From Tepidiforma bonchosmolovskayae (GTDB taxonomy: Bacteria; Chloroflexota; Dehalococcoidia; Tepidiformales; Tepidiformaceae): DNA of 64,000 nucleotides. Below the pieces are notes generated by a model. It searched no databases. It was given only the letters and a program-made list of their open reading frames with translations, and was not told the DNA's origin. The position numbers and the translations under genes are program-made. Every line of letters starts with the position of its first letter. The stretch's first letter is position 1. Shown here in pieces: positions 11,535 to 52,261 of this stretch. Location of the stretch: contig NZ_CP042829.1 in assembly GCF_008838325.1 (NCBI RefSeq), forward strand, positions 1,984,001-2,048,000, in the 5' to 3' direction.

Positions 11535-13513
11535 CGTGCGGCGGCCGCCGGCTGAGCACCGCCAGGCCGCACCCGCTCCAGCAGCACCACAGCGTACCGC
11601 CCAACCCGTACCCGCCCATCGTCGAGCAGTTCGCCGCCCTGCACCCCGGCGAACGCGTGCATCCCGGGCCGGACGCTCGCCGCCAGCGGCGCGTCTCCGT
11701 AGTTCACGAGGTGCACCTCAAGCCCTCGCGGTCCCTCCCACAGGTCCGCATACCCCGGCCCGGAGAGTTCAACCTGCGCCGGGTTCATCGCCGCCAGCAC
11801 CCGCGCCATCCCCTCGTCCATCGGCACCCGCGCGAACCGCCCGCCGAACACCAGCCGGAACAGCAGGTCCAGCCGGTCGACGAACCGCCGCACATGCACC
11901 CGGCTGTAGTACCCGTCCACCACCCGCGGCCCCAGCACCCGGATCACCGGCTCGAGCGGCCCGGCAAACCAGCGAAACCCGCTGTGGCCACGCCGCTTCA
12001 GGCCAAGCTCCCCGAAGCGCAGCACCCGGCCGTGGAACCACGCCGGCGGCGCCGCGCTTGCCGGGAGGAGCAGGCAGCCCAGGTCGCACGGCCCGTGCCG
12101 CTCACCGATGACCCGGAAGGGAATGCCAGCACCAACCAGCGCCTGGACCACCGCGAGGTAGTCGTCCTCGTCGCCCGGGTAGAGGTCGCCCCGCCAGCCG
12201 ATCGCGTCCGGCACGAAGACGCCGACGCGCGCCGCCTCCTGCCGGTCGCACCCGTCTGCGAGCAGCGCGCCGAACTGCCGGACCACCTCGCCGAACGCCG
12301 CGAGCCGCGCATCGTCGCGGCCCTGCCGCAGCAGCGTCCACTTTTCGTCCTCGATGTACTCTGCCGCCCGCAGCACCGGCACCCCGCCCGCCGCGTACCC
12401 CTCTGCCGCAATCTTCGCAAACGTCGACGGCGGCGGCGGCCCGTCCACGCCGATCCCCCGCTCGTAGGCGATGCTCAGCGCCGGCGCCCCGGGTCTCAGC
12501 GCCCGCAGCAGCTTGTAGGTCCCGGCGTTCTGCACCAGCATGCCGTTCGCTGCCCGCGGCGATTGCAGATTCTCCACGAACAGCCAGTCCATGAACGACG
12601 CAATCGCGGGAAGGTCCGCGCCGAACACATTGAACGTGTTCACGTTCACGCCGCCGACCGTGTTCGTCACGAACCTCGTCCCCGGGTAGGCCAGCCGCAC
12701 TTGCTCGACAATGCCCCGCAAGAACTCCGTCAGCGTCCCGGCGCGCCATTCGGCGAACCGCCGTGCCGCCTCGCTCCGCCCCGGCCGGAACAGCCGCGGC
12801 AGCGGCAGCGGGTCCAGCCCGCGTCCGGCCTGCCACTCCCCGAACGCCTCCCGGCACCGCAGGCACGCGCAGCCGGCGAACGCCGTGTAGTCCCGCGACA
12901 GCGGTATCGGCATTCCCCCAAACGCACAGTTGTCGAAGAACAGGACGTCGGCCCCGCGCTGGCAGGCATCCAGGCAGCGCGTCAGCACCCATTCCCGCCA
13001 GCTCCGGTCGTTGAGACACGTGAAGAACCGCCCGTTGTAGTACGGGATCCGCTTTCCCTTCGGGGTCACTGCGTACCACGGTTTCGAAGCGAACGAGCCG
13101 AGCGCCGCCGCGTTCGATGGCTGGATGTACGCCGCCGCCAGCATCCCGAGCTCATGGCACCGACGCGCCGCCCGCTCGAACGTCCGCCAGTCCTCGGCTT
13201 CCAGCTCCGGCGGCAGGCCCCAGTTGTACGTGAGGAACACGCAGTTCACCCCGGCTGTGTCGCGCAGCCACCAGAGCCGCTCCGGCTCGTAGGCCTGGAG
13301 ATACGCCTCGCTGTCCGCCGGTCGCCCGAACCCCTTCAGCCGGTGAATCACCATGCTCCCGTTGCCCGCCCAGTAGTACGCGGGCACCAGCAGTTCACCC
13401 GGCTGCCGGCCATCTACCACGCAGGCAATCGTCGCCAGCAGCCCATTGTCAAAAGATGAACCTCCAGGGCCGCCCCTCCAGCCCCGTCCGGCGCGCGGGC
13501 GCCCCCGTCGCAC
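11531..13513 (-). CDS. putative glycoside-hydrolase-like TIM-barrel protein
   Basis: A large soluble protein (up to 660 residues) that looks like an uncharacterised glycosidase-type barrel, possibly of the GHL group. The strand-end motifs are NCVFLTYNWGLPPE, AAYIQPSN, TCLNDRSW and VLFFDNCAFGG, with Asp as a candidate catalytic acid. A CACLRCREAFGEW segment resembles the CxxC found after the barrel Asp in several hypothetical glycosyl hydrolases. The C-terminal third has beta-rich sequence ending VHLVNYGDAPL and VLLERV, like a carbohydrate-associated beta domain. The start is uncertain: the first ATG at 13513 precedes Arg/Gly-rich sequence, and the conserved part begins near ELLVPAYYW. It is coupled (ATGA) to the flippase-like gene. 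Confidence 0.65.
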   Translation of the reverse strand: MRRGRPRAGRGWRGGPGGSSFDNGLLATIACVVDGRQPGELLVPAYYWAGNGSMVIHRLKGFGRPADSEAYLQAYEPERLWWLRDTAGVNCVFLTYNWGLPPELEAEDWRTFERAARRCHELGMLAAAYIQPSNAAALGSFASKPWYAVTPKGKRIPYYNGRFFTCLNDRSWREWVLTRCLDACQRGADVLFFDNCAFGGMPIPLSRDYTAFAGCACLRCREAFGEWQAGRGLDPLPLPRLFRPGRSEAARRFAEWRAGTLTEFLRGIVEQVRLAYPGTRFVTNTVGGVNVNTFNVFGADLPAIASFMDWLFVENLQSPRAANGMLVQNAGTYKLLRALRPGAPALSIAYERGIGVDGPPPPSTFAKIAAEGYAAGGVPVLRAAEYIEDEKWTLLRQGRDDARLAAFGEVVRQFGALLADGCDRQEAARVGVFVPDAIGWRGDLYPGDEDDYLAVVQALVGAGIPFRVIGERHGPCDLGCLLLPASAAPPAWFHGRVLRFGELGLKRRGHSGFRWFAGPLEPVIRVLGPRVVDGYYSRVHVRRFVDRLDLLFRLVFGGRFARVPMDEGMARVLAAMNPAQVELSGPGYADLWEGPRGLEVHLVNYGDAPLAASVRPGMHAFAGVQGGELLDDGRVRVGRYAVVLLERVRPGGAQPAAAAR

Positions 13514-13617
13514 GCGCCCTTTCCATCGGGTGAACGCGAACGCCGCCGCCCCGCTTGACGCCGCACCTACCGGACGGAAAAATCGCCATGCTTCAAGAAG
13601 GAGGAGCCCTACACCCC

Positions 13618-15910: not shown

Positions 15911-15945
15911 GGAAGGCGGGTTCCCGCAACGGGAACCCGCCTTCC
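15911..15945 (+). terminator. perfect 16-bp hairpin after sodN
   Basis: A 16-bp perfect stem (GGAAGGCGGGTTCCCG) closes on a CAA loop, 35 bases after the sodN stop and ahead of the ffh promoter. No U-tract follows, as with other hairpins in this window. Confidence 0.85.
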
Positions 15946-22582: not shown

Positions 22583-23599
22583 GTGGCCACCAAAATCGGC
22601 ATCAACGGCTTCGGACGCATCGGCCGGCAGGTCTTCAAGGCCATCACGGACCGCTACGCCGGCACCCTCGAAGTCGTCGCTATCAACGACCTCGTCGATA
22701 CCGACGTCAACGCCAACCTGCTCAAGTACGACTCCAACTACGGCCGCTGGCACCGCGACATCCGCGCCGAGAAGGACGCCCTCGTCATCGATGGGCATAC
22801 CGTCCGCGTCTTCGCCGAGCGCGACCCCGGCGCCATCCCCTGGGGCTCGGTCGGCGCCGAAATCGTCATCGAATCGACCGGCCTCTTCACCGATGCCACG
22901 AAGGCCGCCGCGCACCGCCGCGATTCGGTGAAGAAAGTCCTCATCTCCGCCCCGGCCAAGAACGAAGACGTCACGATCGTCCTCGGCGTCAACGCCGACC
23001 GGTACGACCCGGCGAGGCACCACGTCATCTCCAACGCCTCCTGCACCACCAACGGCCTTGCACCCGTCGTCAAGGTCATCGTCGATAACCTCGGCCTCGT
23101 CAAGGGCCAGATGACCACCATCCACTCCTACACCAACTCCCAGCAGATCCTCGACAAGGCCGCCGGCAAGGACCTGCGCGAGATGCGTGCCGGCGCCCTC
23201 AACATCGTGCCGACATCCACCGGGGCCGCCCGCGCCCTCAAGCTCGTCATCCCCGAGGTCGATGGCAAACTCGACGGCCTCGCCTACCGCGTTCCCACCC
23301 CCACTGTCTCCATCGTCGAAGTCGTCGCCCTCACCGAGAAAGACACCACCATCGATGCCCTGAACGAAATCATCCGCGAAACCGCCGCCGAGAAGATGAA
23401 GGGCATCCTCGGCATCACCATGGACCCCGTCGTCTCCATGGACCTCAAGGGCGACGAGCGCTCCTCCATCGTCGATGGCCTCTGCACCAACGTCGTCGGC
23501 GGCAATCTCGTGAAGGTCGCCGCCTGGTACGACAACGAATGGGGCTACGCCTGCCGCCTCGCCGACCTCGCCGCCTTCGTCGCCGAAAAGGGCCTCTAG
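22583..23599 (+). CDS. gap: glyceraldehyde-3-phosphate dehydrogenase
   Basis: Glycolytic NAD-dependent dehydrogenase converting glyceraldehyde-3-phosphate to 1,3-bisphosphoglycerate. The 338 residues begin with the Rossmann motif INGFGRIGR and INDLVD (Asp favours NAD). The active site is NASCTTNGLAP with catalytic Cys; the usual second Cys four positions on is Gly here. HSYT supplies the catalytic His side, and WYDNEWGY ends the domain. GTG start with CGGAGG upstream. A TAGGCT box at 22544-22549 could be its -10. The usual partner genes (pgk, tpi) are not adjacent. A copy of the 54-bp repeat begins 21 bases after the stop. Confidence 0.97.
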   Translation: MATKIGINGFGRIGRQVFKAITDRYAGTLEVVAINDLVDTDVNANLLKYDSNYGRWHRDIRAEKDALVIDGHTVRVFAERDPGAIPWGSVGAEIVIESTGLFTDATKAAAHRRDSVKKVLISAPAKNEDVTIVLGVNADRYDPARHHVISNASCTTNGLAPVVKVIVDNLGLVKGQMTTIHSYTNSQQILDKAAGKDLREMRAGALNIVPTSTGAARALKLVIPEVDGKLDGLAYRVPTPTVSIVEVVALTEKDTTIDALNEIIRETAAEKMKGILGITMDPVVSMDLKGDERSSIVDGLCTNVVGGNLVKVAAWYDNEWGYACRLADLAAFVAEKGL

Positions 23600-23619
23600 C
23601 CCGGGCCGAAACCGCATCG

Positions 23620-23673
23620 AACTCCCGCGCCCCCGCCGCCCGGCGGGGGCGCGCCGCTTCGCGCACAAAGCAC
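23620..23673. repeat. 54-bp repeat, copy 1 (left flank of nitrite cassette)
   Basis: Begins AACTCCCGCGCCCCCGCCG and ends CACAAAGCAC. It contains a perfect 10-bp hairpin (GCCCCCGCCG / CGGCGGGGGC). It matches the copy at 26240-26293 at 51 of 54 positions, in the same orientation. Apart from this repeat I see nothing in the 219-bp gap except a ribosome site for the next gene. Confidence 0.92.
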
Positions 23674-23818
23674 CCTGCTCGGCTGGTCTCGTCATCCGCT
23701 GGCAACACCCACGAAAAGCTGCCGAAACCTCCCGGCAATTGAGCCTTCATCACCCGGCAACCCGGGCGTAACGCCTGCTCCGCATGCTTGTCTGGTCATC
23801 TCGGTCAGCGGAGGAGAA

Positions 23819-25405
23819 ATGAACAAGTTCGAACAGATGAAGGCCGAAAAGGATGGCCTCGACTGCTTCGAGGATATGATTCGCTACGCGACAGAGAATG
23901 TGCCGGTCGAATCCATACCGGAAGACGATCTGCAGCGCATGAAGTGGTATGGCGTCTTCCATCGACCGCAAAAGCCCGGAACCTTCATGATGCGGCTGCG
24001 CGTCACCGGCGGAAGACTGACCGCTGCCCAGGTGCGCACCATCGCCGACATCGCCAGGAGTTTCGGAGGCGGTACCGCAGATATCACAACTCGCCAGAAC
24101 GTCCAGCTGCGGGACCTTCGACTCCCTGACATCCCTGGCATCCCTGGCATCCTGAGCCAGCTCGCGTCCGTGGGGATATCCACGCGGCAAACGGGCATGG
24201 ACAACGTTCGGAACTTCATCGGATGTCCGCTGGCCGGCATCGACGGCATGGAACTCTTCGACTCAACGCCCCTCGTCGAAGCGCTCGCCGCCGCCTACCT
24301 CGCCGCCGGCAAGGAGTTCTCCAATCTCCCCAGGAAGTTCAACGTCTCCATCGCGGGCTGCCGCGATGATTGCGGGGACGCCCAATCGCAGGACCTGGGC
24401 TTCGTCCCGGCGACCCGGGACCTGAATGGCCGTCGCGTCGCCGGGTTCAACGTGCTGGCCGGCGGGGCTCTGGGCGGCACCAGCCCGCGCCTTGCCACCC
24501 CGCTCGATGTTTTCGTCGTCCCCGAGGACGTCGTCCCCGTCTTCCTGGCGCTCCTCAGCATCTACCGCGACCACGGCCCGCGAGAGGTCCGCACCCGCGC
24601 CCGGCTCAAATGGCTTATCGCCGAGTGGGGCGAAGAGCGGCTCCGCGACGAGCTGGAACGTCAGCTCGGCCGAACGCTTCCGAGGGCTGGCGCGGATGAG
24701 CGGCTACAGGTCGCGGGAGACCACCTTGGCATTCATCCGCAGCGCCAGGTCGGCCTCAATTACGTTGGCCTCCATGTGCCCGTCGGGCGAATCACGGCCG
24801 ATGACCTGCTTGGCCTCGCGGACCTCGCTGACACGTATGGGCGCGGAGAACTTCGACTGACCGTGGACCAGAACGTCGTCATCCCCCACGTGCCGGACTC
24901 TGCGCTCTCGGCCCTCCTGGCTGAGCCGCTCCTTCGGCGCCTCAAGCCCAATCCATCAAACATCTGGCGGAACCTGGTGGCCTGTACGGGCAACGACTAC
25001 TGCCACTTCTCGCTCATCGACACCAAACGGCACGCCTACCAGCTGGCCCAGGAGCTGGAGCGGCGTGGGGTGCAGGTCCCCCGGGGCACACGCATCCACG
25101 TATCCGGGTGCATTCATGCCTGCGGCAAGCACCACATCGCCGACATCGGGCTCCAGGGCACGAACATTCGCCTCGGCAATCGCGTCGAGGAGGCAGCCGA
25201 TGTCTACGTCGGCGGCCGGCTCGGAGAGCAGCCGCGGCTCGCCTCGCGGGTACTGGAGAACGTCCACTGGGAAGACCTTCCGGTTCTCGTCGAGGCGCTG
25301 GTTCGCCAGCGATTCGCGCAGACGGTTCCCCTCTCCCTGCTGCGTCTCCAAACCGCAACGTCCCAGACCCCGGCAAATTCCGATCTTGAGGAGGTAAACG
25401 CATGA
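23819..25405 (+). CDS. siroheme-dependent ferredoxin-nitrite (or sulfite) reductase
   Basis: Six-electron reductase with siroheme and a 4Fe-4S cluster, reducing nitrite to ammonium (or sulfite to sulfide). The 528 residues have two pseudo-repeats of the NIR/SIR ferredoxin-like domain. Cluster ligands are CTGNDYC (C-x5-C) and SGCIHACG (C-x3-C), both near the C-terminus. The stretch TGMDNVRNFIGCPLAGID resembles assimilatory nitrite reductases. The next gene, a formate/nitrite-family channel joined by ATGA, makes nitrite the better substrate. A GGAGGAG site precedes the ATG. Codons are visibly richer in A and T at third positions than in neighbours, suggesting acquisition by transfer. Confidence 0.93.
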   Translation: MNKFEQMKAEKDGLDCFEDMIRYATENVPVESIPEDDLQRMKWYGVFHRPQKPGTFMMRLRVTGGRLTAAQVRTIADIARSFGGGTADITTRQNVQLRDLRLPDIPGIPGILSQLASVGISTRQTGMDNVRNFIGCPLAGIDGMELFDSTPLVEALAAAYLAAGKEFSNLPRKFNVSIAGCRDDCGDAQSQDLGFVPATRDLNGRRVAGFNVLAGGALGGTSPRLATPLDVFVVPEDVVPVFLALLSIYRDHGPREVRTRARLKWLIAEWGEERLRDELERQLGRTLPRAGADERLQVAGDHLGIHPQRQVGLNYVGLHVPVGRITADDLLGLADLADTYGRGELRLTVDQNVVIPHVPDSALSALLAEPLLRRLKPNPSNIWRNLVACTGNDYCHFSLIDTKRHAYQLAQELERRGVQVPRGTRIHVSGCIHACGKHHIADIGLQGTNIRLGNRVEEAADVYVGGRLGEQPRLASRVLENVHWEDLPVLVEALVRQRFAQTVPLSLLRLQTATSQTPANSDLEEVNA

Positions 25406-26226
25406 CCGCCGACACACTCGATACCGTCTCAAGGGCTGCCGCCGCCAAGGCTACCTACCTCCGTGAGAAACCCGTCGGCTACCTGGTTCTGTCAGCGCTC
25501 GCCGGCGCCTACGTCGGCTTCGGTATCGTTCTCATCTTTGCCATCGGTGCTCCGCTCTCGGCCACGGGGTCGCCATTCCTGAAGTTTGTCATGGGGGCCT
25601 CTTTCGGCATCGCGCTCTCGCTCGTCGTTGTCGCAGGTTCCGAGCTTTTCACGGGCAACACGATGGTCATGACCGTAGGGGCCATTCGCCGCGCCATCTC
25701 GCCAGCTGGCCTCGCCAACTCCTGGGTCCTGAGCCTGGCGGGCAATCTCGTCGGCTCACTGGCTCTGGCCTGGCTTGTTGCCCAGAGCGGGGCGCTGGCG
25801 AACGCTCCCCAGGCTGACTTCATCCAAAAAACTGCAGCCGCGAAGATGACGCTTCCGCTTGAAGACGCGTTCCTCCGTGGCATCCTTTGCAACTGGCTCG
25901 TGTGCCTGGCCGTGTGGTCTGCCATGCGCCAGCAGTCCGAGGCCGGCAAACTAATCATGATCTTCTGGTGCCTGTTCGCATTCATCGGCGCAGGGTTCGA
26001 GCATTCGATTGCCAATATGACCCTGCTCGGCATCGCCCTGTTCCAGCCGCACGCTGACCCCGTCTCCTGGGGCGGGTTCGTCCACAATCTTGTCCCGGTG
26101 ACGCTCGGAAACGTTGTCGGAGGCGCGCTCTTCGTCGCTGGCGCCTACCTGCTCGCCAACGCCCGCATCGTGCTCCCGTCGACCTCGCCTGCCCCTGCAA
26201 GCATGGGCGAACCGGCTCGAGATTAA
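25402..26226 (+). CDS. formate/nitrite transporter family channel, NirC-like
   Basis: A 274-residue FNT-family membrane channel with about six hydrophobic segments. Visible motifs are GAYVGFGIVL, GSELFTGNTMVM (the FNT pore loop region) and GILCNWLVCLAVW, with GFEHSIANM near the fourth loop. It would carry nitrite into the cell for the reductase. The start ATG overlaps the reductase stop (ATGA), with GAGGAGGTAAACGC upstream, so translation is coupled. The atypical codon use is shared with the reductase gene. Confidence 0.94.
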   Translation: MTADTLDTVSRAAAAKATYLREKPVGYLVLSALAGAYVGFGIVLIFAIGAPLSATGSPFLKFVMGASFGIALSLVVVAGSELFTGNTMVMTVGAIRRAISPAGLANSWVLSLAGNLVGSLALAWLVAQSGALANAPQADFIQKTAAAKMTLPLEDAFLRGILCNWLVCLAVWSAMRQQSEAGKLIMIFWCLFAFIGAGFEHSIANMTLLGIALFQPHADPVSWGGFVHNLVPVTLGNVVGGALFVAGAYLLANARIVLPSTSPAPASMGEPARD

Positions 26227-26239
26227 TCAGCCAAAAGCC

Positions 26240-26293
26240 AACTCCCGCGCCCCTGCCGCCCGGCGGGGGCGCTCCGCTTCGCGCCCAAAGCAC
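26240..26293. repeat. 54-bp repeat, copy 2 (right flank of nitrite cassette)
   Basis: The direct repeat of 23620-23673, differing at three bases (C to T, G to T, A to C). The hairpin has one G-T wobble. Begins 14 bases after the NirC stop. No integrase or transposase lies nearby. Confidence 0.92.
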
Positions 26294-26360
26294 GGCAGCA
26301 GCGTTTCCTTTCCCGAGGCCGCCTCCCGCGTATCCTGTAGCCCACCACTGGGAGGAGCGC

Positions 26361-29300
26361 GTGGCCGAAACCTCGCCCGGGCACCTTGCCGTCCGCCAGC
26401 GCATGGCCGCCCTGCGTACCGGCGCCGCCGGGCGGCTCCTCAGCTGGCGCCTCGGCTTCGCTCTCGTCCTCCTGCTCGGCGCAGCGCTCCGCTTCCACGG
26501 CCTCGGCTGGGACCAGCCCCCCGAAGCCGACTACCCCCTCCAGATGCACCCCGACGAGCGCTTCCTCTCCCTCGTCGCCGACCGCCTCGATTGGCCCTCC
26601 TCCCTCTCCGCCTACTTCGATACCGCCCGCAGCCCACTGAACCCCTACAACGACGGACAGACGAACTCCTACGTCTACGGCACGTTCCCGCTCTTCCTCG
26701 TCAAAGCCGTCGCCACCCTGCGCGGCGCCGACCCGGCCGGCCCGGGCAACTCCTACGCCGCCACCGTCGTCTCCGGCCGCCAGGTTACCGCCGCCTTCGA
26801 TGTCCTTGCCATCCTCCTCGTCTTCCTGCTCGCCGCCGCCCTCGCCGGCCGGCGCATCGGCCTGCTCGCCGCCCTCCTCTACGCGCTCGCCGTCCTTCCC
26901 ACGCAGCTCGCGCACTTCTGGGCGATGGACCCCTTCCTCAACGTCTTCGCCCTGCTCACCCTCCTCCTCTCCGTTCACTGGGTCCGCGCCGAAGGCTCCC
27001 GTGCGTGGTGGCTCGCCGCCGGCATCGGCGTCAGCGTCGGCCTCGCCACCGCCTGCAAGGTGAACGGCGCCATCTTTGCAGCCATCCCGGTCGTCGCCTT
27101 CGCCCTCCGCATCCTCCTCTGGGATATTCGCCGTGCCCGCGCATCCTGGAACGGCGAGCGCCCGCCTGCCCGGCCGGGCTCCTCCTGGCTCAGCGACCTC
27201 TCCATGCTCTGCATGGCCGGAGCCCTCTCGCTCATCGTCTTCCGCATCGCCCAGCCGTATGCCTTCGCAGGTCCCCACCCCTGGGATTTCGCCCTTAACC
27301 AGCAGTGGTGGGATGACATCCAGCGCGAGCGCGACTTCCAGCAGGGCAACGTCGACTACCCGCCCTTCATCCAGTTCGCCGGCACCACGCCCTTCCTGAC
27401 GGCCCTGCGGAACATAACCCTCTGGGGCCTGGGTCCCGCCCTCGCCACAGCTGCCTTCGCCGGCCTGGCGGCGGCAGCCGTCCGGGCCGCCCGCACCCGC
27501 GACCTCGCCCTCGTCCTGCCGGCCGTCTTCGCCATCCTCGTCCTTGCCTTCTGGGGCCCGCGATTCGTCGCGTTCATGCGCTACTTCCTCCCGATGTACC
27601 CCGTCCTCTGCCTCTTCGCGGCCTGGGCGCTCGTATTCCTCGTCGAGTCGGCCCGCATCGGCTGGTCGTTCCCCATCCGCCGCCGCGCGCTCCGCCTCGG
27701 GCCGCGCCCCGCCCGCACCGCAGCCTTCGGCGTTTTCGGACTCGTCGTGGCCGCAACCGCGTGGTGGGCGTTCGCCTTCCAGCGCATCTACGTCGAGGAG
27801 CACCCCCGCATCGCCGCCACCCGCTGGGTCTACGCAAACGTCCTGCCCGGGAGGTCGATAACCACCGAAATCTGGGACGACCCCGTCCCCTGGGATTTCC
27901 CCGGCCGCGAACGCCAGTACCGCCTTGTCGAACTCGACATGTACCGCACCGACTCGCCGGAGAAGATTCGCGAGCTCGTCTTCGGCACCCCCGGGAATCC
28001 GAACCGGCCCGGCCTCGCCGGCGCCGACTACATCGCGGTCACTTCCAATCGGGTCCGCGGCTCGGTCGCCAAACTGGAGCGCGAGTACCCCGCCACCATC
28101 CGCTACTACCGGCTGCTCGAAACGGGCGAACTCGGCTTCGAACGCGTGGCCACCTTCCGCGTCCGCCCGTCCTTCCTCGGCACCTCGGTCGACGACTCCG
28201 GGGCCGAGGAATCCTTCACCGTCTACGACCATCCCGAAGTCCGCATCTACCGCAAAACCGCCGCCTTCGACCCCGCCCGCGCCTACGCGCTCCTGTCGGA
28301 GGCGCGGCCCGAAGCCGCCGTCAACCTCCTGCCCCGGCAGGGCCGCTCGAACGGGCTCCAGTTCACCGCTGACGAAGCCGCCGTCCAGCAGTCCGGGGGC
28401 ACCTTCGTCGACGTGTTCGACGCGCCCCGCTGGCTGAACCGCACTGCCTGGCTCTGGTGGCTCCTCTGGCTCGAAGCAGCCGCCCTTGCCGCGCTCCCGT
28501 GGGTGACCCTGCTCTTCCGGCCGCTCGCCGGCCGCGGCTACGGCCTCGCGAAGCTTCTCGGCCCGCTTGCGGTGGTTCTCCTGGCCTGGCTGCTGGTCGC
28601 ATGGGGCGCCGCGCACTTTTCCCGGACGCTCGCCTGGGCCGCGTTCGCCGCCTGCATGATCGCCGGCCTCGCCGTCGGAGCGGCCCGCCGCCGCAGCCTG
28701 CTCACCGATGCCCGTGAAAGCTGGCGCAACTGGCTCGCCGCCGAGGCCGTCTTCCTCGCCGCCTTCTTCGCCTTCCTCCTCCTGCGCGCCGCCAACCCCG
28801 ACCTCTGGCACCACCCCCAGGGCGGCGAAAAGCCGATGGAAATCGCCTACCTCACCGCCGTCGTCCGCTCCACCATCCTCCCGCCCTACGACCCCTGGTT
28901 CGCCGGCGGCAGCCTCAACTACTACTACATGGGCTGGTTCTACCTCGCGGTGCCCATCCGTGCCTTCGGCATCCTCCCCGAGTACGCCTTTAACCTCGGC
29001 GTGCCGACCTTCGCCGCGACCGCCGCCAGCGTTGCCTTCGCCGTTGTCAGCGCCCTCGTTGGCGCCGTCCAGCCCCACGCCGAGGCCGTCCGCCGCCGCG
29101 CCGCGGAGCCGCTGCTCGCCGGCATTCTCGCGGCGTTCCTCCTCATCGCCGTCGGCAACCTCGAGGCCGCCCACCAGTGGATCGAACGCCTCCAGGCCGT
29201 CAACCGCTGGTCGCTCGCCTCCGGCACGCCCGTTGCCGGCGGTGCCGTCGGCATCATCGGCGGCCTCTGGCGCTGGCTGTTCGAGGGCGCCGCCCTGCCG

Positions 29301-30905
29301 CCGTTCGACTGGTGGCGGAGCTCGCGCGTCCACTTCGGCTCGTTCGATATCACCGAGTTTCCATACTGGTCCTTCCTCTTCGCCGACCTCCACCCGCACC
29401 TGATGGGCATCCCCTTCTTCACCGGCCTCGTCGCAGTGGCCCTGGCGATCGTCCTGGCCGCCGCCTCTGGAGACCGGACCCGCCCGTGGCTGCTCGCCGC
29501 GCTCGCCGGCCTCTTCGTCGGTCTCATCCGCACGGTCCACACTTGGGATTTCCCCACCGCCGCGCTCATCGCCGCTGCCAGCATCCTCCTCGCCGCCCTC
29601 CTCGCACCGGGCTCCGCCGAGCGCCGCGCCTGGACCGCGCTCGGCCAGCTCGGCCTCGCCGGCATCGTGGCCGCGGTGCTCTTCGCGCCCTACAACGCCC
29701 GCTTCGAAACCTTCGACCCGGGAATCGTCCGCGCCCCCGAAACGACGAAGTTCCATCAGTTCGTCGTCCAGTACGGCATCTTCCTCGCCATCGGCCTGGC
29801 GTTCGTCGCCCTCCGCTGCCGCGAAGAGCTTGAAGCCCGGGAGTTCGAGCCGGGCCGCAACCCCATCCTCGCCGTCGTCGCCGGCTGGCTCGAAGTCGGC
29901 TCCCTCGCATTTTTCCTCGCCGGGCTCGCGGCCTTCACCTGGCCGTTCGGCCTCACGACCGTCTCCATGGCCCTCGTCGGCATCGTCTTCCTGCTCAACC
30001 TCGCCTGGCTCGACTTCCGTCGGCCCGACCGCGACCTTGCCCGCCTCCTCGCCCCCCTCCTGTTCGCGCTCGCCCTCGCGATCGCCGCCGGTGTCGACGT
30101 CGTGACCCTGAAGAACGACATCGTCCGCATGAACACCGTCTTCAAGTTCAGCCTCCAGGCGTGGCACCTTTTCGCCCTCGCCTCCGGCTACGCCGCCTGG
30201 TACGTCGTCCGCGGCATCCTCGAACGCATGCGTGGCGCCCCGCGGGCGGGCCGGGCAGCAGGCGGGCTGGTCCTCGCCGCCCTCGCGGGCATCGTCCTCG
30301 CCTCCAGCCTGTTCCTCATCTCCGGCACCCGCGCCCGCCAGCAGGCCCGCTTCGGCGATACCCCCCTCACGCTGAACGGTTTCGCCTTCTTCCAGCATGG
30401 GGTCTTCACCGAGCCCCGCGCCGAAAGCACCACGGCCGACGACGTCACCTTCCGCCTCGACGAGGACCTGCCCCTCATCCAGTGGCTCCGCCGGAACGTC
30501 GAAGGCTCCCCGGTCATCGTCGAAGCCGTCGGCCCCCTCTACCGCTGGACCGGCCGCATCAGCGAGTACACCGGCCTGCCCGCCGTCATCGGCTGGGACT
30601 GGCACCAAATCCAGCAGCGCACCGATTACGCCCCGCTCGTCCAGCAGCGCCGCACCGAAGTCCAGCGCTTCTATACCGACCCCTCCACCGATTTCGCCGA
30701 GCGCTTCCTCCGCAAGTACAACGTCCAGTACGTCATCGTCGGCACCGAAGAGCGCGTCCACGGCACCGAACCCGGCCTCGCGAAGCTCGCCGCCATCCCG
30801 GCCCTCTCCGAAGTCTTCCGTGATGGCCCGAACGTCATCTACCGGGTCGACCAGGCCCGGCTCGCCGCCGATATCCTCGCCCGCGACCTCGCCCGTGCAC
30901 CCTGA
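26361..30905 (+). CDS. large membrane protein with PMT-like glycosyltransferase part and Chlor_Arch_YYY (DUF2298) domain
   Basis: A 1514-residue polytopic protein. The N-terminal half resembles dolichyl-phosphate-mannose-type glycosyltransferases: YPLQMHPDERFLSLVADRL early, with a conserved acid, many hydrophobic segments, and a soluble loop at about residues 480-680. The C-terminal half carries WFAGGSLNYYYMGWF, HPHLMGIPFF and DVVTLKNDIVRMNTVFKF, the DUF2298/YYY features known from Chloroflexi and archaea. It is a fusion of two membrane modules. Start GTG with GGAGGAGC directly upstream. Its role is unproved; glycan transfer from a lipid carrier is inferred from the fold. It is followed with an 11-bp overlap by a small HExxH gene. 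Confidence 0.9.
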   Translation: MAETSPGHLAVRQRMAALRTGAAGRLLSWRLGFALVLLLGAALRFHGLGWDQPPEADYPLQMHPDERFLSLVADRLDWPSSLSAYFDTARSPLNPYNDGQTNSYVYGTFPLFLVKAVATLRGADPAGPGNSYAATVVSGRQVTAAFDVLAILLVFLLAAALAGRRIGLLAALLYALAVLPTQLAHFWAMDPFLNVFALLTLLLSVHWVRAEGSRAWWLAAGIGVSVGLATACKVNGAIFAAIPVVAFALRILLWDIRRARASWNGERPPARPGSSWLSDLSMLCMAGALSLIVFRIAQPYAFAGPHPWDFALNQQWWDDIQRERDFQQGNVDYPPFIQFAGTTPFLTALRNITLWGLGPALATAAFAGLAAAAVRAARTRDLALVLPAVFAILVLAFWGPRFVAFMRYFLPMYPVLCLFAAWALVFLVESARIGWSFPIRRRALRLGPRPARTAAFGVFGLVVAATAWWAFAFQRIYVEEHPRIAATRWVYANVLPGRSITTEIWDDPVPWDFPGRERQYRLVELDMYRTDSPEKIRELVFGTPGNPNRPGLAGADYIAVTSNRVRGSVAKLEREYPATIRYYRLLETGELGFERVATFRVRPSFLGTSVDDSGAEESFTVYDHPEVRIYRKTAAFDPARAYALLSEARPEAAVNLLPRQGRSNGLQFTADEAAVQQSGGTFVDVFDAPRWLNRTAWLWWLLWLEAAALAALPWVTLLFRPLAGRGYGLAKLLGPLAVVLLAWLLVAWGAAHFSRTLAWAAFAACMIAGLAVGAARRRSLLTDARESWRNWLAAEAVFLAAFFAFLLLRAANPDLWHHPQGGEKPMEIAYLTAVVRSTILPPYDPWFAGGSLNYYYMGWFYLAVPIRAFGILPEYAFNLGVPTFAATAASVAFAVVSALVGAVQPHAEAVRRRAAEPLLAGILAAFLLIAVGNLEAAHQWIERLQAVNRWSLASGTPVAGGAVGIIGGLWRWLFEGAALPPFDWWRSSRVHFGSFDITEFPYWSFLFADLHPHLMGIPFFTGLVAVALAIVLAAASGDRTRPWLLAALAGLFVGLIRTVHTWDFPTAALIAAASILLAALLAPGSAERRAWTALGQLGLAGIVAAVLFAPYNARFETFDPGIVRAPETTKFHQFVVQYGIFLAIGLAFVALRCREELEAREFEPGRNPILAVVAGWLEVGSLAFFLAGLAAFTWPFGLTTVSMALVGIVFLLNLAWLDFRRPDRDLARLLAPLLFALALAIAAGVDVVTLKNDIVRMNTVFKFSLQAWHLFALASGYAAWYVVRGILERMRGAPRAGRAAGGLVLAALAGIVLASSLFLISGTRARQQARFGDTPLTLNGFAFFQHGVFTEPRAESTTADDVTFRLDEDLPLIQWLRRNVEGSPVIVEAVGPLYRWTGRISEYTGLPAVIGWDWHQIQQRTDYAPLVQQRRTEVQRFYTDPSTDFAERFLRKYNVQYVIVGTEERVHGTEPGLAKLAAIPALSEVFRDGPNVIYRVDQARLAADILARDLARAP

Positions 30906-51975: not shown

Positions 51976-52130
51976 CAGCCGTGCCCCTCGCCCGCCGGAT
52001 GGCTGATGTCACCTTGCGCTGCTGCCATCGATGCCTGGCCCCCGGGTCCGTAGTCGCGATCTCCCCGGGGCAGACGGGCATACGACGGCGACCGCCGACC
52101 GGCGCCGCGCATAGCGCAGCGCCAGCCCTG

Positions 52131-52254
52131 TTCTCTCCCATCCGGACTGTTACCGTCGGCCCCGGGATTCCACCGGGTCAGCCCCTCGCCGCGCCAGCGG
52201 CTCGGGGGTCGCGGGCTCTCACCGCCGGTGGGGAATTGCACCCCGCCCCGAGAA
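52131..52254 (-). ncRNA. FMN riboswitch (RFN element)
   Basis: On the minus strand the leader reads GGGGTGCAATTCCCCACCGG, then GAGAGCCCGCGA, then after a variable stem ACCCGGTGGAATCC and AACAGTCCGGATGGGAGA: the conserved RFN blocks in the right order. It is about 155 bases ahead of ribE and would shut the operon off when FMN is plentiful. The 3' part of the leader (51976-52130) holds no other signal I can name. Confidence 0.96.
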
Positions 52255-52261
52255 CATCACC

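Follow-up and report, generated by a model that had tools for sequence, protein, structure and literature searches.

How did two genes for nitrite assimilation come to lie between two almost identical repeats in the genome of the hot-spring bacterium Tepidiforma bonchosmolovskayae (Chloroflexota), and were they gained at this site or lost from it in the relatives that lack them? We address this question in the window, a 64-kb stretch of DNA within a genome of one contig and 2.75 Mb (G000). From left to right, and all on the + strand, the locus contains gap (22583..23599), which encodes a type I glyceraldehyde-3-phosphate dehydrogenase (NCBIfam TIGR01534 above cut-off), repeat A (23620..23673), nirA (23819..25405), nirC (25402..26226), repeat B (26240..26293), and the gene of a Chlor_Arch_YYY membrane protein, here called YYY (26361..30905; TIGR03662 above cut-off).

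The 528-aa product of nirA, judged by its NIR_SIR domains (Pfam) and its conserved cysteines, has the features of a NirA-type assimilatory nitrite reductase, that is, a ferredoxin-type siroheme enzyme. Its top NCBIfam match is the ferredoxin-nitrite reductase PRK09566, with a score somewhat under the curated cut-off. Among solved structures its nearest relatives are nitrite reductases, with 3b0h at E 1.8e-114. The siroheme/4Fe-4S cysteines C389, C395, C431 and C435 are invariant in an alignment of six homologues. The second gene, nirC, encodes a formate/nitrite channel of 274 aa (TIGR00790 above cut-off; PF01226), and the two reading frames overlap in an ATGA. Neither within the nirA-nirC unit nor beside it did we see a gene for a transposase or an integrase. 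Elsewhere in the window, an FMN riboswitch is found at 52126-52259 on the - strand (104 bits).

Repeats A and B, each 54 nt long and in direct orientation, lie at a distance of 2620 nt and agree at 51 of the 54 positions (94.4%). Repeat A starts 20 nt past the stop of gap (23599) and repeat B 13 nt past the stop of nirC (26226). Each folds into a strong hairpin of 11-12 bp with a 4-nt loop (stem arms 23626-23638 and 23641-23653 in A), in which one C-G pair of the stem is changed to U-G in B. A pattern search allowing up to 3 mismatches returned these two copies and no others in the whole 2.75-Mb genome. CRISPR arrays apart, they are also the sole pair of intergenic direct repeats of at least 35 nt that encloses predicted genes in 864 contiguous kb. 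As a separate observation, CRISPR-like arrays with 37-nt repeats (AGTTGCAACC..GGGGACTGAAAC) lie outside the window, at G000:C1:2063699-2079035. An earlier note on this DNA had described near-identical bracketing repeats just outside the flanking stop codons, a hairpin within them and the ATGA coupling of the two genes, and all of this is borne out. On the other hand, its suggestion that the repeat is dispersed, and that the unit moved by homologous recombination between dispersed copies, loses its support because only two copies exist, both at the gap-YYY locus; a dispersed, REP-like element is rejected on the same ground.

The repeat is best read as the 3' hairpin of gap, a terminator-like structure, and not as an anonymous mobile sequence, because all congeners carry a hairpin behind gap and because such hairpins are concentrated behind genes. 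A GC-rich hairpin lies closely 3' of gap in every Tepidiforma compared, with a sequence that diverges between species. In a 464-kb sample of G000, 17% of the free 80-nt stretches that follow genes contain a perfect stem of at least 9 bp, compared with 1.3% of those that precede genes; the other hairpins of the genome differ in sequence from that of the repeat. Both A and B place a GC-rich hairpin directly past a stop codon, as an intrinsic terminator does. We use the wording terminator-like because no U-tract was found after the stem: a terminator scan gave no + strand site at the repeats. Rfam had no match at A or B. The longest perfect intergenic hairpin of the 464-kb sample, with 16 bp, lies between two other genes of the window (15911-15945).

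Six Tepidiforma genomes (G000-G005) have a common gene order around the locus. In the sister species of T. bonchosmolovskayae (G004), whose gap is 98.5% identical, the junction consists of gap, one hairpin and YYY; nirAC is absent, and the junction measures 144 nt versus 2764 nt in G000. The single hairpin of G004 has a 40-nt core identical to copy A. The junction is empty in G001 and G002 as well, and in G003 it holds a gene of CoA-transferase family III (L057:4418-5710, - strand). Tepidiforma sp. KatS3mg062 (G005), on the other hand, has nirA-nirC at this junction too, oriented as in G000, with two dissimilar hairpins, one behind gap and one behind nirC. Repeats comparable to A and B were not found around the inserts of G005 and G003. 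The gap-YYY junction is, then, a variable site in Tepidiforma. Its empty state is probably the older one, because gap and YYY are also adjacent without nirAC in other genera (G006, G018 and G022). In two further genomes from outside the genus, nirAC lies among unrelated genes (G021), or stands divergently next to a YYY gene while gap is found on a different contig (G020). A scan of a contig collection yielded no congener with nirAC besides G005, and a search of the Tepidiforma literature gave nothing on the gap-YYY locus.

Two side observations concern the same genomes. In G001, gap is split into two frames (L055 4519-5527) and YYY into several pieces, and these frameshifts are probably sequencing errors in the assembly. 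At 13513-13555 of the window, two genes are only 41 nt apart that are separated by about 4.5-4.6 kb in G001-G004, the G004 counterpart being a sugar-type ABC transporter (L086:9166-13627, judged by eye); this difference is either a deletion in G000 or an insertion in the other genomes.

The codon composition of the unit sets it apart from its host. The GC3 of nirA is 0.790 and that of nirC 0.767, versus a mean of 0.885 (sd 0.041) over a reference set of 303 predicted genes from 464 kb of G000, so that the two genes fall in the lowest 3.0% and 1.3%. The use of C at third positions is 0.49 in nirA-nirC versus 0.73 in gap and 0.69 in YYY. Homologues of nirAC in other genomes have a GC3 of 0.85-0.94, and in G005 it is similar to that of the neighbouring genes: the composition is foreign to the host genome in G000, but not in G005. 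This deviation points to a separate recent history of the nirAC genes in the window, and relaxed codon selection could give the same result. The earlier note's looser third-position codon bias is thus substantiated, and the empty site with a single repeat that it had proposed to look for in relatives exists in G004. Its more general view of a mobile or exchanged unit without transposase stands as far as presence and absence in relatives, deviant composition and the lack of a visible transposase are concerned, and is unsupported in the dispersed-repeat route. Silent-site dating was also tried and discarded. The raw fourfold divergence of nirAC between G000 and G005 (0.53/0.57, against 0.17-0.33) seemed older, but it carries no age signal because most gene pairs are near saturation once base composition is allowed for.

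We lean, at somewhat better than even chances, towards a gain of nirAC at the gap-YYY junction in the G000 lineage after its split from G004, with duplication of the gap hairpin in the event. An ancestral arrangement gap-T-YYY, where T is the pre-existing 3' hairpin of gap, would have become gap-T-nirAC-T-YYY. Copy A would still terminate gap while copy B would now terminate nirAC and shield YYY, so that the neighbouring transcription units would stay insulated. The route may most simply have been RecA-type recombination with incoming DNA that had T or the flanks in common, which would make the repeats the scar of a recombination event and not an active mobile element. The entry route itself is not visible because the flanking genes show no imported tract, their identity to G004 being ordinary. 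The closest NirA is that of G005 (86%); none of the collections searched yielded a closer donor, and a search for a plasmid source gave weak partial matches only. Ku-dependent end joining with fill-in was considered and dropped, as no Ku gene was found.

Outside the stem, about 2 of 28 positions distinguish A from B, whereas about 8 of 28 distinguish A from the G004 copy (hand count from the alignment). In this part neither copy is as close to the G004 hairpin as it is to the other copy, which favours the hairpin having been duplicated once G000 and G004 had separated, that is, a gain; with so few positions, and with gene conversion as another possible cause, the comparison is suggestive, not strong. 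Gain also agrees with the empty junctions of G001, G002, G004, G006, G018 and G022 and with a GC3 that is deviant in G000 and native-like in G005. The opposite history, in which nirAC stood at gap-YYY in the Tepidiforma ancestor and was lost twice, before G001, G002 and G003 diverged and in G004, where recombination or slippage of two T copies would have left one, is possible but in our judgement less likely than gain. Loss in G004 keeps its place in the discussion because the locus is common to G000 and G005, with equal site and orientation, and two independent arrivals are less simple than one. The species tree, built from ten concatenated proteins, is (G000,G004) and (G005,(G002,(G001,G003))), where support for the second clade is 95%, and separates the two carriers in agreement with ancestral presence; the NirA tree makes G000 and G005 sisters with full support, and their protein distance resembles the distance between the species, as would also be expected. 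Ancestral presence, however, requires one gain and two losses, leaves G005 without a flanking repeat, and has to accommodate a codon usage that is foreign to G000 despite a supposedly long residence, which is not so in G005. Its two T copies would predate or match the G004 split, yet the G004 copy is more distant from them than they are from one another. Under gain and loss alike, the repeats mark recombination at the gap-YYY junction.

That the repeats are unrelated to the insertion, two terminators having become alike through gene conversion or selection while nirAC is present or absent for other reasons, seems quite unlikely to us. GC-rich hairpins are indeed common behind genes in G000, and the hairpins of G005 behind nirC and gap demonstrate that both positions can bear one; but the identity of A and B spans 54 nt, far past the stem, no other such pair occurs in 864 kb, and the other hairpins of the genome differ in sequence. 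A further reading takes T as an attachment site for integron-like or integrase-borne cargo without its own recombinase, A and B being attL and attR and a host-encoded recombinase exchanging single operons in trans at the gap hairpin. It would account for a hairpin directly behind a same-strand gene, for direct repeats with a single copy at the empty site, and for the different cargo (CoA-transferase) in G003, and tyrosine-recombinase-like sequences do exist elsewhere in the G000 genome. We nevertheless hold it to be very improbable, since no integron integrase exceeds the cut-off (matches to TIGR02249 all lie far under it, the best with 79 of 265 bits, and control genomes reach a similar level), the attC core motifs RYYYAAC and GTTRRRY are absent from 23600-23700 and 26227-26320, the genome has no additional T site, and the inserts of G005 and G003 are without such repeats. 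For lack of an integron integrase above the cut-off and of core motifs, an integron gene cassette proper is rejected. Were the attachment-site reading true, gap-YYY would be a chromosomal docking site in Tepidiforma, for nirAC in two species and for a CoA-transferase in a third.

We also analysed how the unit may be expressed. Two predicted GlnR-type boxes lie in the interval from copy A to nirA, GTCATCCGCTGGCAAC (23691..23706, + strand) and GCAACCCGGGCGTAAC (23757..23772, + strand), each matching GTNAC-N6-GNAAC at 7 of 8 positions. At least one box with at least 7 of 8 matches lies upstream of nirA in all nine Chloroflexota homologues compared (the window and L099-L104, L106 and L107). This holds only for the spacing of 6; at spacings of 2-5 and 7-11 the count is 0-4 of the nine. 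Such a box is present within 200 nt upstream of 8% of G000 genes. Also encoded in the genome is an OmpR-family protein in which no classical receiver is obvious (L147:1462-2148, - strand). Its closest matches among solved structures are chains 8hih, 8hig and 8hml, which we take to be GlnR structures. At the sequence level, an operator box and a GlnR-like regulator are therefore both present, as expected of a GlnR regulon. Because the insert has its own predicted GlnR-type operators, nirAC has the look of a nitrogen-regulated, self-contained unit flanked by terminator-like hairpins, with regulation and termination both predicted.

These results provide a before-and-after pair in close relatives, in which a two-gene operon enters or leaves the chromosome without a mobile-element enzyme and transcriptional insulation would be kept because the terminator-like hairpin of the neighbour was duplicated. 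They also offer sequence-level grounds for predicting that nitrite assimilation in Chloroflexota is under GlnR-type control. The event is a tidy, small-scale gene gain or loss of an already known kind and no new kind of system.

In actinomycetes, nitrite assimilation genes such as nirBD are under GlnR control. The nirAC unit resembles them in its upstream GTNAC-N6-GNAAC box and in the GlnR-like OmpR-family protein of the genome, and differs in its Chloroflexota host and in having, in place of NirBD, a ferredoxin-type NirA together with NirC. In integron cassettes with attC, too, each same-strand unit is followed by a repeat that forms a hairpin, whereas G000 has no integron integrase above the cut-off and the nirAC locus no attC core motifs, its hairpin is near-perfect and its copies are only two. 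Like integrase-borne islands, nirAC is marked at one chromosomal site by direct repeats of about 50 nt (attL/attR in the islands); unlike them it has no integrase or mobilisation gene, its site is not at a tRNA, and the inserts of other species at the junction are without these repeats. Genomic islets are small strain-specific insertions with short direct repeats at their flanks and no recombinase genes. They share with nirAC, an insert of two genes, the direct repeats, the empty site with a single repeat, the deviant composition and the lack of a recombinase. The nirAC repeat differs in being the identifiable terminator-like hairpin of the upstream gene, and insulation would therefore be kept on both sides of the insert.
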